The position numbers and the translations under genes were made by a program. Below the pieces are notes generated by a model, which saw only the letters and a list, made by a program, of their open reading frames with translations, was not told the origin of the DNA and did not search any database. From Candidatus Erabacter solicola (GTDB lineage: Bacteria; Vulcanimicrobiota; Vulcanimicrobiia; Vulcanimicrobiales; Vulcanimicrobiaceae), in the NCBI GenBank assembly GCA_003136895.1, contig PLDY01000029.1:1-59404 (forward strand): a stretch of 59,404 nt of DNA, read 5' to 3'. Positions within the stretch are counted from its first letter, which is position 1. Each line of letters opens with the position of its first letter. Positions 8,115 to 52,372 of this stretch are shown here, one piece after another.

Positions 8115-8818
8115 ACGTGCTGCGCGCAATCGCCTTGGCACTCGTGGCGGCGCTCGGAGCGCCCTGCGCCGCCGGCGCGCAGGGCGTTGCTTCGCCGAGT
8201 CCCGCGCCGGCGACCGTCTCGGTCGTAGGCCAAGTGCTTTCGGCCGGCTCCGGGTACCTCGTTTTCACGACCGGCGACGCGCTGCGGCTCGATTCCGCAG
8301 TGACGCTGCCCAAAGGCCTGCGTCTGGGTCAGACCGTTCGCGCCCTGATCGACGCACGATCGCATGCGATCACGTCGCTGATCCTCGAGCCGAAGGCGCT
8401 CCTGCCGGCCGACATCGACGCCACCAAAATACCGCGTGAGTTCGTCGTGGCGTCGCCGGGCTCGACGCGAACCGGCGCGCTTCTCGACAGCCAGACCGGC
8501 GCCGCCGTGCACGGCGTTACCGTGACGATCAACGTGCGCGTTCCCGACAACACGCCGATTACCGACGACGTCTACCTCGCAACCGACCGCACCAACTTCA
8601 GCCCGGCCGAGATTCGCATGATCCGGATGGACGCGCGCACCTGGAGCGTCTCCGTACAGATCGCATCCGGAACGCAGTTGCGCTATGAATTCACGCGCGG
8701 CAACTTCGCCAACATCGAACGCGACAAACTCGGCAGCATCGTCAATCCGCGCACGATCACCGCGGCCGACAACCTGCAGACGCACGATGCGGTCGCGCAT
8801 TGGGCCGATATCAACTAG
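8111..8818 (+). CDS. Secreted starch-binding-like (CBM20-type) domain protein, copy 2
   Basis: 235 residues, paralogue of the protein at 5601. Signal peptide (VNVLRAIALALVAALGAPCA), short Pro linker, small beta domain (VVGQVLSAGSGYLVFTTGDA) and a C-terminal starch-binding-like domain (VTINVRVPDNTPITDDVYLA, FSPAEIRMIRMD, LRYEFTRGNFANIE). The pairing of TTGDA/TTGDG and FTRG motifs with copy 1 is clear by eye. GTG at 8111 overlaps the barrel stop as GTGA, exactly mirroring the ATGA junction of the first pair, so the whole two-gene unit was probably duplicated. It is the last gene of the operon and converges on a lipoprotein gene four bases away. Confidence 0.6.
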   Translation: MNVLRAIALALVAALGAPCAAGAQGVASPSPAPATVSVVGQVLSAGSGYLVFTTGDALRLDSAVTLPKGLRLGQTVRALIDARSHAITSLILEPKALLPADIDATKIPREFVVASPGSTRTGALLDSQTGAAVHGVTVTINVRVPDNTPITDDVYLATDRTNFSPAEIRMIRMDARTWSVSVQIASGTQLRYEFTRGNFANIERDKLGSIVNPRTITAADNLQTHDAVAHWADIN

Positions 8819-8822
8819 AGTT

Positions 8823-9356
8823 TCACTCGATTTTCAGCGAGAGTTGCGAGGTCGCCGATGCCCCCGTTGCGGTGCGCGCCTCGAGCGTGACCGCGTACGT
8901 ACCGTGGAAGAACGACGGCGTCTGCGGCGGAATCACAAACGAGAGTCCGAAGACGCCCGGACCGCGCTTTTCGAGTGGAATCGTAAAGCCCGCGGACTTG
9001 GCCGTGACGCTTGCGATCGCCCGGCTCGTTCGCACGTTCCAGACGATCGTGTCCCCCGCGTGCGCGACGCGCGGAGTCGCCGACGCGGAATAGATCGCTG
9101 CGAGCGGCGGCGTGATGGGCGTCGCACTCGCCTGGACTTCGATCGGCGGCGCAACGCGCGCCGATGACGCAGGCGGCGCCGGAGTCGAATGCGGCGCAGG
9201 CGCCCGCGGAGGCGAGCTTTGAAGCGGTCGCGTCGTGGCCGAATGCGAACACGCGCTTGCGACCGCGAGCGCGAGCACAAGGGCTCCCACCCCAGTGGTG
9301 GAACCCGCACGCGATGGCCTATCAGCCGATTGATTTACGGCCGCTTCACGTAACAT
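8823..9356 (-). CDS. Putative lipoprotein with C-terminal Ig-like domain
   Basis: About 177 residues. A hydrophobic stretch VGALVLALAVASAC ends in a plausible lipobox (ASAC), followed by a Pro/Ala/Ser linker and one beta-rich domain (about 95-177; DTIVWNVRTS, FSFVIPPQ-like strand, TSQLSLKIE). The domain resembles those in the proteins at 13867 and 14428. No function can be assigned. Start is unclear: ATG at 9356 gives a positively charged n-region but overlaps the divergent gene that starts at 9314; a GTG at 9290 avoids the overlap but leaves no basic residues before the hydrophobic core. It converges on the starch-binding-like gene. Confidence 0.5.
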   Translation of the reverse strand: MLREAAVNQSADRPSRAGSTTGVGALVLALAVASACSHSATTRPLQSSPPRAPAPHSTPAPPASSARVAPPIEVQASATPITPPLAAIYSASATPRVAHAGDTIVWNVRTSRAIASVTAKSAGFTIPLEKRGPGVFGLSFVIPPQTPSFFHGTYAVTLEARTATGASATSQLSLKIE

Positions 9357-10252
9357 CGCTGGACGATCGCCCTTCAAAAGTGCGGAGCGCGGATGGAGGC
9401 AAGACCGTTCCGGCCGATGCTTCCTTCCGAACGTGGTTCGACGCGCTGCCCAATATCCTCGCGGGCGAGAGCCTGCGCGAACTCGTCGGGCGCACTGCCC
9501 AGGCGATCCGCACGCGCCGTCCCGTCTTGCTCGGCATGGGCGGGCACGTCATCAAGGTTGGCCTCTCCGGGATGGTCTGCGACCTGGTCCGCGGTGGTCT
9601 GATCTCCGCGATCGTCTCGAACGGTTCGGTGACGATCCACGATACCGAATTGGCGCTGGTCGGCAAGACCTCAGAAGACGTCGACGTCGCCCTGCAAGAC
9701 GGAACCTTCGGCATGTCGGGCCGAACCGCGGATTTCATTCTCGGCGCCATCTCGCGCGATCGCGCGCGCGGCATCGGACGCGCGCTTGGCGACGCGCTGC
9801 TCGCCGCCGATGCACCGCACGCCGAGAGTTCCGTGCTCGCAACGTGCGCGCGCAGCGACGTCTCGCTCTGCGTCACGGTCGCCATCGGAACCGATATCAT
9901 CCACGCCCACCCTCAAGCCGACGGGGCGGCCCTGGGCGAAGCGGCCCTGATCGATTTTCGCACGCTCTGCTCGGTCGTCGCCGATCTGCTCGACGGTGGA
10001 GTCTACTTGAACTTCGGTTCGGCCGTGCTCTTGCCCGAGGTCTTCCTCAAAGCGGTAAGCGTCGCACGCAACCTGGGACATCGCGGCGACTTCACGACCG
10101 CGGATTTCGACTTCATTCGCCAGTACCGTCCGATGACCAACGTCGTGCGCCGACCGCATCTCGGCACGGACGGCAAAGGTTTCTCGTTCACGGGACCCCA
10201 CGAGTTGCTCTTCCCGCTCTTCTGGCAAGCCGTGCGAAGCGAGTTGGGATGA
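9314..10252 (+). CDS. Conserved protein, resembles bacterial deoxyhypusine-synthase-like family
   Basis: 312 residues, cytoplasmic. It carries a glycine-rich nucleotide-binding type segment (LLGMGGHVIKVGLSGMVCDL), then ISAIVSNGSVTIHD, and GTDIIHAHPQADGAALGE, and ends near GKGFSFTGPHELL. From memory these blocks are shared with a bacterial family annotated as deoxyhypusine-synthase-like, which binds NAD and whose bacterial role is mostly unknown. I see no obvious eIF5A-like substrate, and the active lysine is not clear to me. ATG at 9314 precedes IDLRPLHVTSLDDRPSKV, the expected N-terminal block. The next gene, a glycosyltransferase, overlaps by ATGA, so they are coupled. The family name is uncertain; real coding is not. 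Confidence 0.6.
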   Translation: MAYQPIDLRPLHVTSLDDRPSKVRSADGGKTVPADASFRTWFDALPNILAGESLRELVGRTAQAIRTRRPVLLGMGGHVIKVGLSGMVCDLVRGGLISAIVSNGSVTIHDTELALVGKTSEDVDVALQDGTFGMSGRTADFILGAISRDRARGIGRALGDALLAADAPHAESSVLATCARSDVSLCVTVAIGTDIIHAHPQADGAALGEAALIDFRTLCSVVADLLDGGVYLNFGSAVLLPEVFLKAVSVARNLGHRGDFTTADFDFIRQYRPMTNVVRRPHLGTDGKGFSFTGPHELLFPLFWQAVRSELG

Positions 10253-44753: not shown

Positions 44754-45662
44754 GTGAGCGAGAGACCGGTTCGGACCTATTGGATCGATGGCGAACTCGT
44801 GCCGCCGGAGAACGCGCACGTGTCACCGCTGGCCCACGGCTTGCATTACGGCACGAGCGTCTTCGAAGGCATCCGCGCGTACCCGACGCCGCGCGGCATC
44901 GCGATCTTCCGGCTCGACGACCATCTGCGGCGTTTCTTCGCCTCGGCCGAGCACTATGCGCTGAAGATCGCGTACTCGCTCGAGGCCCTGCACGACGCAG
45001 CGGTCGCGACCTTACGCGCAAGCGGAATGAGCGATGCGTACCTGCGGCCGCTCGCATACTTCGGCGACGAATCGATCGCGCTTGCACCGGGCCTGCGCTG
45101 CTCGACGCACGTCGTACTCGCGGTCTTCGAATTTCCGCCGCTCAGCCAAGGCGCGCCCGGATTTCGGGCGACGATCTCACCGATTCAGAAGTTCTCTTCG
45201 CGGGCGCTGCCGGCCACCGTGAAAGCCGGCGGTCACTATACCAATTCGGTGCTCGCGCTGCACGATGCTAAAGCGCGCGGGTTCGACGAAGCGATCTTAC
45301 TCAACATCATGGGCGAAATCGCCGAGGGGACCGGCGAGAACATCTTTATCGTCGTCGGCGGCGTCCTCCGCACGAACGACGCATCGGCGGACGCACTCTA
45401 CGGCATCACCCGCGACTCGGTTCTGCAGATCGCGGAACGCGAAGGCATTCCGACCGCGATCGGACCGATCACGCTCGACCAACTGCTCGGCGCGGACGAG
45501 GCGTTCTTCACGGGAACGGCCGCCGAAGTGATTCCGATCTTGGCGGTCGACGATCACGAGTATTCGTCACAGCGGCCGATCACCGATCAACTCCGCACGA
45601 TCTACGCCGGCGCCGCGCGCGGCGCCGATCCGCGCTTCGAGAGCTGGCTGACCCTCATCTAG
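44754..45662 (+). CDS. ilvE: Branched-chain amino acid aminotransferase
   Basis: 302 residues, class IV PLP enzyme. TYWIDGELVPPENAHVSPLA, HGLHYGTSVFEGIRAY, PIQKFSSRALPATVKAGGHY with the PLP lysine (VKAGGHYTNS), GFDEAILLNIMGEIAEGTGE and AFFTGTAAEVIPI are visible. Last step of leucine, isoleucine and valine synthesis. GTG at 44754 is preceded by GACGAGG. Its last 96 bases overlap the convergent DAHP synthase gene. A D-amino-acid or aminodeoxychorismate lyase role is less likely given the GTAAEV ending. Confidence 0.93.
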   Translation: MSERPVRTYWIDGELVPPENAHVSPLAHGLHYGTSVFEGIRAYPTPRGIAIFRLDDHLRRFFASAEHYALKIAYSLEALHDAAVATLRASGMSDAYLRPLAYFGDESIALAPGLRCSTHVVLAVFEFPPLSQGAPGFRATISPIQKFSSRALPATVKAGGHYTNSVLALHDAKARGFDEAILLNIMGEIAEGTGENIFIVVGGVLRTNDASADALYGITRDSVLQIAEREGIPTAIGPITLDQLLGADEAFFTGTAAEVIPILAVDDHEYSSQRPITDQLRTIYAGAARGADPRFESWLTLI

Positions 45663-46463
45663 CGCGGCGCGAACGGCGCGCACCCGCGCGGCCAGACGCG
45701 CGAACGCCGGCAAGTCGATCGCCTGCGCGGCATCCGAGCGCGACGCATCCGGTTCCGGGTGCGTCTCGACGATCGCGCCGTCGAGTCCGGCGGCGGCGGC
45801 GGCGAGCGTCAGCGGCTCGATCATGCTGCGCCGTCCCGAGGCGTGCGATGGGTCCAGGATCACCGGCAAGTGCGTCAACTCTTTCAGGCGAATCGCGCCG
45901 CCCAGGTCGCAGACATTGCGCGTCTGCGGATCGAAGCCGCGAATACCGCGCTCGCATAAGATCACGCGCTCGTTCCCTTCGAGCAGAATATACTCGGCGG
46001 CGAAGAGAATCTCGTCGAGGGTCGCCGCCGCACCGCGTTTGACTAAGATCGGCATGCCGCTGCGCGCCGCGGCACGCAAGAGCGGAACGTTCTGCATGTT
46101 GCGCGCGCCGATCTGCAGCATATCGACGTAGGCCGCCATCAGCGCCACCTGGGCCTCGGCCAAGACTTCGACGACGGCCGGCAACCCGCTGCGCTGCGCG
46201 GCCTCGTTGATGAGCGGCAACGCATCCGCGCCGAGGCCCTGAAAGTCGTACGGCGAGGTACGCGGCTTGTACGCGCCGCCGCGCAACATCGCCCCGCCCG
46301 CGGCGCTGACCGCGGCGGCAATCGTGTCGATCTGCGTCGCGCTCTCGATCGCGCAGGGCCCGCCGATCAAGACGAATCCCCCATCGCCGAAGCGGACAGG
46401 GCCGACTTCAACCACGGTAGTTCGAACGGATCGGCGTGAAGCCAGAGTGGGTCCGGTAAGCAT
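45567..46463 (-). CDS. aroF: 3-deoxy-7-phosphoheptulonate (DAHP) synthase
   Basis: 298 residues, the type I-beta form related to KDO8P synthase. First step of the shikimate pathway, joining PEP and erythrose 4-phosphate. Blocks: FVLIGGPCAIESATQIDTI, RGGAYKPRTSPYDFQGLG, DMLQIGARNMQNVPLLRAAA, PILVKRGAAATLDEIL and LPVILDPSHASGRRSMI with the metal His. No ACT or chorismate-mutase domain is attached, so feedback control must come from elsewhere; the leader and terminator upstream suggest transcript attenuation. AAGGAG precedes the ATG. Its end overlaps ilvE by 96 bases. Confidence 0.95.
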   Translation of the reverse strand: MLTGPTLASRRSVRTTVVEVGPVRFGDGGFVLIGGPCAIESATQIDTIAAAVSAAGGAMLRGGAYKPRTSPYDFQGLGADALPLINEAAQRSGLPAVVEVLAEAQVALMAAYVDMLQIGARNMQNVPLLRAAARSGMPILVKRGAAATLDEILFAAEYILLEGNERVILCERGIRGFDPQTRNVCDLGGAIRLKELTHLPVILDPSHASGRRSMIEPLTLAAAAAGLDGAIVETHPEPDASRSDAAQAIDLPAFARLAARVRAVRAALDEGQPALEARIGAARGAGVDRAELIGDRPL

Positions 46464-46476
46464 TGCGGCTCCTTGT

Positions 46477-46505
46477 AAAATAAAAAACCACCCGGTGAGA
46501 GGTGG
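46477..46505 (-). terminator. Attenuator terminator in the DAHP synthase leader
   Basis: On the minus strand, CCACC and GGTGG pair over 5 bp around an eight-base loop, directly followed by TTTTTT, an A and TTTT. It ends just before the AAGGAG site of the DAHP synthase gene. The loop and inner stem (46492-46500) are exactly complementary to 46542-46550 in the leader, so a competing structure can prevent it. Confidence 0.7.
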
Positions 46506-46550
46506 CTGCGAACGAAATGACGTTTCGATCGGGCGCGACTATCTCACCGG
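46492..46550 (-). promoter_or_regulatory. Alternative antiterminator pairing in the DAHP synthase leader
   Basis: On the minus strand CCGGTGAGA (46550-46542) and TCTCACCGG (46500-46492) are fully complementary over 9 bp. The first segment is exactly the last three codons of the leader peptide; the second includes the inner stem of the terminator. A ribosome stalled further upstream would leave the first segment free to pair, blocking the terminator; one that reaches the stop codon would cover it. This is the region 2:3 versus 3:4 logic of amino-acid attenuators. Confidence 0.65.
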
Positions 46551-46610
46551 CACATTCCTATGTGGCGTGTAGTACCAATACCAATAGTTCGCGGCGAGTT
46601 GAAGCGTCAT
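46539..46610 (-). CDS. Aromatic-rich leader peptide (attenuator) for DAHP synthase
   Basis: 23 codons, ATG at 46610 to TAG at 46539: MTLQLAANYWYWYYTPHRN, then VPVR. Codons 9-14 encode Tyr-Trp-Tyr-Trp-Tyr-Tyr, so four of 23 residues are Tyr and two Trp. Scarce charged tRNA-Tyr or tRNA-Trp would stall ribosomes there. Ribosome-binding site is weak (TAGAG), and a -10 box lies nine bases upstream, so the message may start only a few bases before the ATG. It is too short to have another role and its position relative to terminator and antiterminator is as expected for a leader peptide. Confidence 0.7.
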   Translation of the reverse strand: MTLQLAANYWYWYYTPHRNVPVR

Positions 46611-46619
46611 GGGAGCTCT

Positions 46620-46648
46620 ACGCTATCACCCGGCCTGACGCATGTCAA
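46620..46648 (-). promoter_or_regulatory. Candidate sigma-70 promoter of the DAHP synthase leader
   Basis: On the minus strand TTGACA (46648-46643) is a perfect -35 box; 17 bases later TAGCGT (46625-46620) is a partial -10 box with TGA just before it (extended -10). Start of transcription would fall near 46613, about three bases before the leader ATG. Confidence 0.5.
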
Positions 46649-46650
46649 CC

Positions 46651-51274: not shown

Positions 51275-52372
51275 TCAGCGCCGGGGCGTAACGACGGAGC
51301 CTCCTCGTGCCAGCGCCGCGAAGGGGGCGAGCTTCGTCATGATCTCTTCCCATTCGCCGGCGACCGTGGAATCGGCAACGACGCCGCCGCCGATATCGAG
51401 ATGCCCGCGCCCCGTCGCCTTATCGATCGTCGCGGTGCGGATCGCAACGTTCCAGCAGGCGTTGCGATCGGGTCCGATGGCGCCGATCGCTCCGCAGAAG
51501 ATGCCCCGCTCGCGCCGCTCGGTTCGCGCAATGCACTGCATCGCCGCCACCTTGGGGGCACCCGTGACGCTCCCGCATGGAAACATGGCCGCAAAAATCT
51601 CACGTAACGTGAGGGTCGAGCCGATCGTCCCGACGATCGTCGAGGTCATCGTAGCGAAGTCGCGGTAGCGTTCGATCTCGCAGAGCCGTTCGACCGTGAC
51701 GTCTGCGGCGATGCGATGCACGTCGTTCCGGAGCAGATCGACAATCATGACGTGCTCGGCGCGGTTCTTCGGATTCTCGAGGTCTCGAGCGTACTCGAAC
51801 TTTGCCGTGCCTTTCATCGGCTTGGCGGTGAGGCGGCCTGCATCGAGCGCGAGGAACAGCTCGGGCGAAGCGGAGACGATCGCGTGCGCCGGAGTATCGA
51901 CGAAGGCGGCGTAGGGATAGTTCTCGTGCGCCAGCAGGCCGGCGAACAGCGCAAACGGCTCGCCTTCAAGCGCGAACGCGAACGGCGCCGAGTAATTGAC
52001 CTGATAGACGTCGCCGTCGCGGATCGCCGACAGGATCGAATTGACATCTTCGGCGTAGCGACGCGCATCGACCACCGGTTCGAGCGAGCCGAGTGAGTAG
52101 CCGGCGCTGCAAACGAGCGTCGCCTCCGCCGGCTCACCATAGACGCCGAAAGCGAGTAACGGTAGCGTCCCCGCGGCCGGTTGCACCTGCTTCGGCACGA
52201 AGTGCGCGCCGAGTTCGTAGGTCGCATAGCCTGCGACGTGCGCGCCCGCGTCAAGCGCCGCTTCGACTTGATCGAAGGCGCGCTCCACTTCGTCGCCGTT
52301 TCGTGCGACGATCAGCCGCTCGGGCGCGTCAAACGAACGGAGCCGGCCGCCGAGTTGCGCGACGACCCTCAC
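51275..52372 (-). CDS. pabB: Aminodeoxychorismate synthase component I
   Basis: 365 residues. Makes 4-amino-4-deoxychorismate for folate synthesis, with a glutaminase partner (pabA) not seen here. GDVYQVNYSAPFAFALEGEP, LFLALDAGRLTAKPMKGTAK with the ADC synthase lysine motif (KPMKGT; anthranilate synthases have PIAGT), RNDVHRIAADVTVERLCEIE, FPCGSVTGAPKVAAMQ and GHLDIGGGVVADS are visible. GTG at 52372 overlaps the MFS gene stop (GTGA). No PabC domain is fused. Confidence 0.9.
   Translation of the reverse strand: MRVVAQLGGRLRSFDAPERLIVARNGDEVERAFDQVEAALDAGAHVAGYATYELGAHFVPKQVQPAAGTLPLLAFGVYGEPAEATLVCSAGYSLGSLEPVVDARRYAEDVNSILSAIRDGDVYQVNYSAPFAFALEGEPFALFAGLLAHENYPYAAFVDTPAHAIVSASPELFLALDAGRLTAKPMKGTAKFEYARDLENPKNRAEHVMIVDLLRNDVHRIAADVTVERLCEIERYRDFATMTSTIVGTIGSTLTLREIFAAMFPCGSVTGAPKVAAMQCIARTERRERGIFCGAIGAIGPDRNACWNVAIRTATIDKATGRGHLDIGGGVVADSTVAGEWEEIMTKLAPFAALARGGSVVTPRR

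Follow-up and report, generated by a model that had tools for sequence, protein, structure and literature searches.

The DNA upstream of an aroF-like DAHP synthase gene of Candidatus Erabacter solicola contains a short reading frame rich in tyrosine and tryptophan codons, and the question is whether this frame controls transcription of the gene, and which amino acids it would sense. It had been predicted from the letters alone that ribosomes stalling at Tyr and Trp codons act on a terminator at this locus. The window, i.e. the whole stretch of DNA that was analyzed (59,404 nt), comes from an assembly of 2.85 Mb in 176 contigs that is 91.6% complete. We conclude, with a probability of roughly 0.93, that a ribosome-mediated transcription attenuator is located before aroF, although support from transcripts, ribosome profiling or reporters is lacking. 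The anatomy of the locus, its conservation, some covariation, the coding content of the leaders and the agreement of sister leaders with the pathways of their genes form the basis of this conclusion. The features of the locus are as follows:

46643–46648, minus strand: −35 box TTGACA, read from the sequence
46620–46625, minus strand: putative −10 box TAGCGT, spacer 17, 9 nt upstream of the leader ATG
46539–46610, minus strand: leader peptide frame of 23 codons, MTLQLAANYWYWYYTPHRNVPVR and a stop codon
46569–46586, minus strand: control codons 9–14, Tyr Trp Tyr Trp Tyr Tyr (TAT TGG TAT TGG TAC TAC)
46572–46580, minus strand: segment 1, inside the control codons, from the minimum-energy fold of 46610–46477
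46542–46550, minus strand: segment 2, CCGGTGAGA, codons 21–23, adjoining the stop codon; 5′ half of the antiterminator
46492–46500, minus strand: segment 3, TCTCACCGG, overlapping the terminator loop and 3′ arm; 3′ half of the antiterminator
46482–46507, minus strand: intrinsic terminator, hairpin 46507–46486 with 8 pairs and a loop of 6, then a T-run
46469–46474, minus strand: Shine-Dalgarno-like AAGGAG of aroF, 3′ of the terminator, read from the sequence
45567–46463, minus strand: aroF-like type I-beta DAHP synthase, 298 aa, profile match to TIGR01361

The original prediction was right to the base about the 23-codon frame (46610–46539) and its Tyr-Trp-Tyr-Trp-Tyr-Tyr run at codons 9–14, and exact about the 9/9 complementarity of CCGGTGAGA (46550–46542) and TCTCACCGG (46500–46492). 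The intrinsic terminator that it placed between the leader and the Shine-Dalgarno sequence of aroF was found there, and it was the only terminator-like site in a 501-base region, compared to a mean of 0.4 in shuffled sequences. The TTGACA announced just upstream is at 46648–46643, and the −10 box was added by us. This hexamer matches TATAAT at 3/6 positions and is thus weak; a consensus promoter scan of the 501-base region returned no promoters and did not list TTGACA/TAGCGT. The pattern TTGAC-N16..19-TAnnnT-N6..11-ATG/GTG occurs a single time in the 59.4 kb window, at the promoter of the aroF leader. A run of at least six Trp/Tyr codons in a short ATG frame likewise occurs once, in MTLQLAANYWYWYYTPHRNVPVR, and even runs of at least four were confined to this leader in the window and absent from 2.38 Mb of simulated sequence (40 first-order Markov copies of the window). 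Chance was set aside because the layout is kept in all 30 readable orthologous loci, as described below.

The comparison with related genomes had been proposed as a check, and it showed that the frame, the aromatic codons, the pairing of segments 2 and 3 (2:3 pairing) and the terminator are kept. Orthologues were called with a gene profile, which scored at least 376 bits in 31 of 99 genomes of the family and at most 368 bits for the remaining matches. Upstream DNA was readable for 30 of them; G120 was left out, as its gene is truncated by the end of a contig. Every readable locus has an aromatic leader with a TTGAC promoter and, judged by eye, a GC-rich hairpin and a T-rich stretch; the T-run of G020 is poor and was not picked up by script. 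TTGAC followed by A or G (the script sought TTGAC) is at the matching place in 30/30 leaders, and in all of them the −10 hexamer ends 7–10 nt 5′ of an in-frame ATG, with G058 counted at its second ATG, since the first is 1 nt after its −10. The last control Trp codon is 17–24 nt 5′ of segment 2 in 27 leaders, and the other three have a further Trp codon near segment 2. Two classes of leaders were observed: short ones (23/30) with the stop codon in or beside segment 2, and long ones (7/30) that read through segment 2 and whose stop codon begins 27–30 nt past it. A covariance model built on the 30 aroF leaders (R1) detected the leader in 32 of 149 genomes of Vulcanimicrobiota, to which the taxonomy resolves the name Ca. 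Eremiobacterota, with E-values of at most 1.6e-14; G120 and G123 were added in this way, their leaders being situated at contig ends.

The aroF leader is probably leaderless, as inferred from the distance between the −10 box and the ATG in the absence of start-site data. The predicted transcription start is too close to the ATG to leave room for a Shine-Dalgarno sequence of the leader. In the accessible part of a study on Streptomyces lividans, the mean distance from −10 box to transcription start is given as 6.3 nt, and several leader peptides, trpL1 among them, are leaderless (PMC8079986).

Segment 2 has the sequence CCGGTGAG in most of the 30 leaders, and segments 2 and 3 pair over 5–8 consecutive positions, with G-U allowed, in all of them. 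Across genomes, segment 2 is translated in three frames, as PVR/PVS, CR-stop or AGE, which indicates that the RNA and not the peptide is conserved. A compensatory change from C-G to U-A was seen in G014, where CTGGTGAG pairs with CTCACCAG; G122 and G057 have CCGGTAAG with CTTACCGG, and another 2:3 pair varies as G-C, G-U and A-U. In the 2:3 alignment, 92.4% of the cells were paired, compared to 28–59% when the segments were slid. Column shuffles gave 91.4% and were as high in 36/500 cases. Five cells were changed on both sides (2/500 shuffles as high), and these fell in only two pairs, a number reached by 70/500 shuffles. True 2:3 partners scored 231 versus 224.35 (sd 2.50) for swapped ones, with 71/10000 as high (17 distinct pairs). 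The covariation and swap statistics were not corrected for relatedness. Of the covarying 2:3 stem that had been foreseen, the pairing was seen throughout, and the covariation is modest. Judged by the three frames and the few compensatory changes, the antiterminator element is selected as RNA.

Structures with a ribosome footprint were modelled. When the ribosome covered the last control Trp codon and the RNA reached only to segment 3, the predicted mean probability of 2:3 pairing in the 30 leaders was 0.92; for a ribosome at the stop codon it is 0, which is true by construction of the mask. Segment 2 of the window leader remained free in the model with a ribosome on any of codons 9–14 and 12 nt covered downstream. 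For the full-length RNA of the window, the predicted terminator probability changed from 0.00 when stalled to 0.98 at the stop codon. The switch of the window leader is thermodynamic in this model, and so are those of G014, G016 and, for the most part, G037 (0.21 when stalled); G015 (0.71) and G056 (0.78) were intermediate. In the other 24/30 leaders, the equilibrium fold kept a terminator probability of 0.97 or more even when stalled, so that the switch would have to be kinetic there. Masking of segment 2 by a ribosome at the stop codon is not simply applicable to the seven long leaders, because the ribosome translates through segment 2. Without a ribosome, the minimum-energy fold of the window leader pairs segment 1 (46572–46580) with 46553–46545, i.e. 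most of segment 2, and the terminator is formed. In 21/30 leaders, the predicted partner of segment 2 (P > 0.5) was leader sequence located at the last control Trp codon or 3′ of it; the window leader is not among these (P 0.02) and has weak 1:2 pairing under that definition.

Accounting for this layout, we propose a mechanism in which the transcription start, the stalling and the starvation response are all inferred. RNA polymerase would start at or beside the leader AUG, and the transcript would be translated as leaderless mRNA. When Trp-tRNA, and in the clade of the window also Tyr-tRNA, is uncharged, the ribosome would stall on codons 9–14 and leave segment 2 free to pair with newly made segment 3; no terminator would then form, and aroF would be transcribed. 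When charged tRNA is plentiful, the ribosome would reach the stop codon and cover segment 2, leaving segment 3 free, whereupon the terminator at 46507–46482 would form and transcription would end before aroF. In the absence of translation, upstream leader sequence would hold segment 2, and termination would be favoured too.

The same layout was found before other genes. R1 gave 49 further matches beyond the 32 aroF leaders; 20 were read, and 16 of them were same-layout leaders before other genes (not L222, L223, L225 and L226). A sequence-only model that includes the promoter (R2) was built on 17 aroF leaders and these 16 sister leaders and gave at least 102 matches outside the aroF leaders and model members. 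Forty of these were read, selected by rank and model coverage, and 35 had a short leader frame before a gene (not L344–L347 and L349). E-values of both models are rough. Gene families were tested for 23 sister genes, and the rest were named by eye or by their place in profile listings.

Pro-rich leaders, e.g. one ending in PCPPQPHQEMPVR and a stop codon, precede proC in 14 genomes (L212, L207, L208, L210, L211, L213, L214, L221, L292–L297), with 33 genomes of the family having a proC match; they are candidates for a proline-codon attenuator on proline biosynthesis. Ile/Leu/Val-rich leaders were found before the acetolactate synthase gene (ilvB), ilvC and ilvE. Leaders with FFF, FSF, YWYFY or YAYWY precede prephenate dehydratase (pheA) or its DAHP synthase fusion, and Trp leaders precede trpE (through R1/R2 in five genomes, G028, G034, G006, G040 and G001) and a class I Trp/Tyr-type tRNA synthetase gene (trpS by eye). 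Also observed were a YFAYWYF leader in G061, where the gene is a DAHP synthase from a different family, a YFYRWY leader before EPSP synthase (aroA), a Thr-rich leader before a threonine-synthase-like gene (thrC) and a leader with Thr/Cys/Met codons before homoserine dehydrogenase (hom; L336 in G067). G067 is from a different family within the class, so the set extends beyond a single family. Cys/Met-rich leaders (L217, L220, L310, L341, L305, L335, L303) precede genes for SsuA-like substrate-binding, PAPS reductase, sulfite-reductase-like and metB-like proteins and are candidate sulfur-sensing attenuators. At L302, L306, L311 and L330, 3–6 consecutive Tyr codons precede the gene of a conserved protein of ~250 aa, whose L311 copy had no Pfam, NCBIfam or PDB sequence match; the poly-tyrosine leaders suggest regulation of this uncharacterized gene.

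In 31 R2 leaders with an assigned pathway, the fraction of cognate codons was 0.278, compared to 0.120 (sd 0.019) after shuffling (0/20000 as high). These leaders had not been used to build R2, and their pathways were assigned by the analyst. The Trp/Tyr, Pro, Ile/Leu/Val and Cys/Met types are favoured because R2 was trained on them; its training material contained no Thr type and no leader with purely Phe or purely Tyr codons. The aroF attenuator is one member of a phylum-wide attenuator set in Vulcanimicrobiota.

In the genome of the window itself, R1 gave, down to E 10, the aroF leader and four weak matches, the best of which (C62, E 0.016) looked coding-like by eye. R2 gave 18 matches besides aroF at the same limit; no leader layout was seen by eye in the seven that were inspected, and none was detected when all 18 loci were scanned for promoters and terminators. 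Other attenuators may be missing from this genome or have been missed, because the assembly is 91.6% complete. No Trp leader was seen by eye before its trpE, and a scan that required a TTGAC promoter and a perfect stem of 6 or more detected no trpE leader in 30 trpE loci or at the trpE of the window genome (L063). The latter is no evidence of absence, as the scan misses the aroF leader of the window. Its background was one leader-like match in 618,109 bases (80 loci); these loci were drawn from at least 592 matches, and none was closer than 57% identity and hence none of the aroF subfamily.

As to the amino acids sensed, the proposed input of Tyr and Trp stood for Trp, which is in the aromatic run of 30/30 leaders, and did not stand for Tyr in the whole group, since Tyr is in the run of only 13/30 leaders from two clades. 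Tyr-bearing runs occur in two parts of the gene tree, and well-supported branches force at least two changes. One group comprises five genera including the window genome (YWYWYY, YWYWY, YWYWF, FWYWFF, WYWYF), and the other has YSYWWY/SYSYWW. From the leader sequences, Trp appears to be the invariant input, and “Tyr and Trp” would fit the clade of the window and one other, not the whole group. Judged from sequence alone, Trp starvation almost certainly switches aroF on via a stalled ribosome. The end of trpG lies 14–81 nt 5′ of the leader ATG in 13/30 genomes, in keeping with a link to Trp; in the window genome, trpE is on another contig (C173), where trpG and trpD were also located by eye. Starvation for Tyr is probably sensed likewise, with less certainty than for Trp.

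The same attenuator could also sense Trp only, with the Tyr and Phe codons being neighbours without regulatory weight. The universal presence of Trp, the restriction of Tyr to 13/30 runs and the adjoining trpG in 13/30 genomes would all agree with such a role for Trp alone, which we regard as unlikely though worth keeping in mind, since the clade of the window alternates Trp with Tyr/Phe in five genera, and a stall at any of codons 9–14 is predicted to free segment 2. Furthermore, the four poly-tyrosine sister loci have leaders without Trp, and YAYW/YWYFY-type leaders precede prephenate dehydratase-DAHP synthase fusions. The Tyr-rich sister leaders suggest a sensor role for Tyr codons in this phylum. 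Five loci are such fusions (L027, L030, L031, L300, L338; L028 and L029 were outside the test), and leaders of the YAYW or YWYFY type were found before four of them (L030, L031, L300, L338). A wider scan located the YAYW leaders at L030 and L031, found without a terminator check, and no such leader at L001, L026–L029 and L032. The DAHP synthase paralogues L026–L032 were also considered as clean controls without a leader and rejected, as the DNA examined at L027, L030 and L031 lay inside the fusion gene.

A different signal is conceivable, in which the nascent peptide binds a free amino acid and arrests the ribosome without involvement of uncharged tRNA. Leader peptides are able to act in this way, with TnaC as an example in the portion of the literature source available (PMC8429421), but the aroF leader peptides vary outside the aromatic run and have their C-terminal part in three frames. 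Sister leaders carry codons cognate to their own pathway, and arrest at excess Trp that turns on a biosynthetic gene would have the wrong sign, so that this possibility is very improbable. Slightly weaker still is the idea that a functional micropeptide is the purpose of the small frame, with the terminator serving only to end a transcript that comes from upstream. Trans-acting leader peptides do exist, as the accessible text on peTrpL of Sinorhizobium indicates (PMC7298713). Against such a function, the peptide is poorly conserved and complementary segments are present, the last control Trp codon keeps its distance of 17–24 nt to segment 2 in 27/30 leaders, and the promoter is directly 5′ of the leader ATG. 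T-boxes, riboswitches and protein-binding leaders also put terminators before biosynthetic genes. This shared placement is all that speaks for one of them here, and such control is scarcely credible, as the RNA from promoter to terminator is largely the frame and Rfam covariance models found no family (T-box, Trp leader etc.) at gathering score in the whole window, only RF01405 on the other strand (E 7.1) in the leader when E-values of up to 10 were admitted, and nothing relevant at lower thresholds in six related loci.

The target of ribosome-mediated attenuation at this locus matched TIGR01361 with 322.8 bits (cut-off 267.75) and contains PF00793; the ferredoxin-like regulatory domain PF18152 was not found in it. 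The second DAHP synthase of the window genome has PF18152 (58.3 bits), and the domain was tested in these two enzymes only. Aligned aroF orthologues (n=22) were recorded as similar or shorter, and also as 20–29 residues shorter. The best PDB sequence matches of the aroF product were 1vs1, 4grs, 5j6f, 4c1k and 1zco. With a target that lacks the allosteric domain, attenuation may replace end-product inhibition, and the aroF subfamily may escape feedback inhibition; this link to the missing domain is inferred. Combining these observations, we hypothesize with moderate confidence that Vulcanimicrobiota run much of their amino-acid metabolism via one re-codable module, which consists of a leaderless-placed promoter, a short ORF that varies chiefly in its sensing codons, a stop-codon/antiterminator element and a terminator. 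Codon swaps would have given sensors for Trp, Trp+Tyr, Tyr alone, Phe, Pro, Ile/Leu/Val, Thr/Met and Cys/Met, and at aroF the module would stand in for the missing allosteric domain of DAHP synthase.

The mechanism is classical ribosome-mediated attenuation, and a DAHP synthase gene was already known as an attenuator target in bacteria. The nearest precedent is aroR-aroF of Corynebacterium glutamicum, described in the available sections of two papers as a leader-peptide attenuator with Phe-Tyr-Phe codons that responds to Phe and not to Tyr (PMC11802643, PMC4046766). Both systems have a leader-peptide attenuator with aromatic codons before DAHP synthase (the layout, not the sequence, was compared); the C. 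glutamicum leader differs in its Phe-Tyr-Phe codons and belongs to another phylum, whereas here Trp is invariant and Tyr/Phe occur in part of the group. Tandem Trp codons and a terminator/antiterminator switch are shared with trpL of E. coli (PMC11802643) and with Streptomyces trpL1 (MFAHSTRNWWWTAHPAAH), which is leaderless (PMC8079986), as the aroF leader probably is. In Actinobacteria, Trp leaders have been described for trp operons and trpS (PMC1262725, PMC8079986). As far as these sources were accessible, the trp attenuators that they name precede trp operons or trpS, whereas the attenuator described here precedes the first enzyme of the common pathway, has Tyr codons added and directly follows trpG in 13/30 genomes. 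Ribosome-mediated control of aromatic-amino-acid genes is also known from pheA and pheST of E. coli, which, in the part of the source available, differ in being proteobacterial and responding to charged tRNA-Phe (PMC11802643). Pro codons like those of the sister proC leaders occur in the Salmonella mgtCBR/mgtA leaders. According to the accessible text, the latter sense charged tRNA-Pro and control Mg2+-transport/virulence genes, mgtP having a Shine-Dalgarno-like sequence (PMC3641672), in contrast to the proC leaders, which are probably leaderless and precede a proline biosynthesis gene. No precedent for a proline-biosynthesis gene under proline-codon control was found in the open literature, partly judged by title, and none for pure tyrosine-codon leaders among the open-literature matches listed. 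The original prediction knew of no description in this phylum, and none was found in the open literature, where Eremiobacterota or WPS-2 did not occur together with “leader peptide” (subscription papers were outside the scope).

These results extend textbook attenuation to a little-studied phylum, represented here mostly by multi-contig assemblies, and allow sequence to predict which input a key metabolic gene responds to. The leaders form a natural attenuator series that differs mainly in the sensing codons and lends itself to testing the choice of codons, leaderless initiation and the position of the stop codon against one another.

Some further observations were made on neighbouring and related genes. 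The trpE of the window genome (L063, G000:C173) was matched in two overlapping pieces in different frames, 8417–8851 and 8847–9611, which represent either an assembly error or a real frameshift. A TIGR00564-like (chorismate-binding) match under the family cut-off is present at 51326–52081 of the window (minus strand). The aroF gene and a convergent ilvE frame (44754–45662, plus strand) share 96 bases at their 3′ ends (45567–45662).
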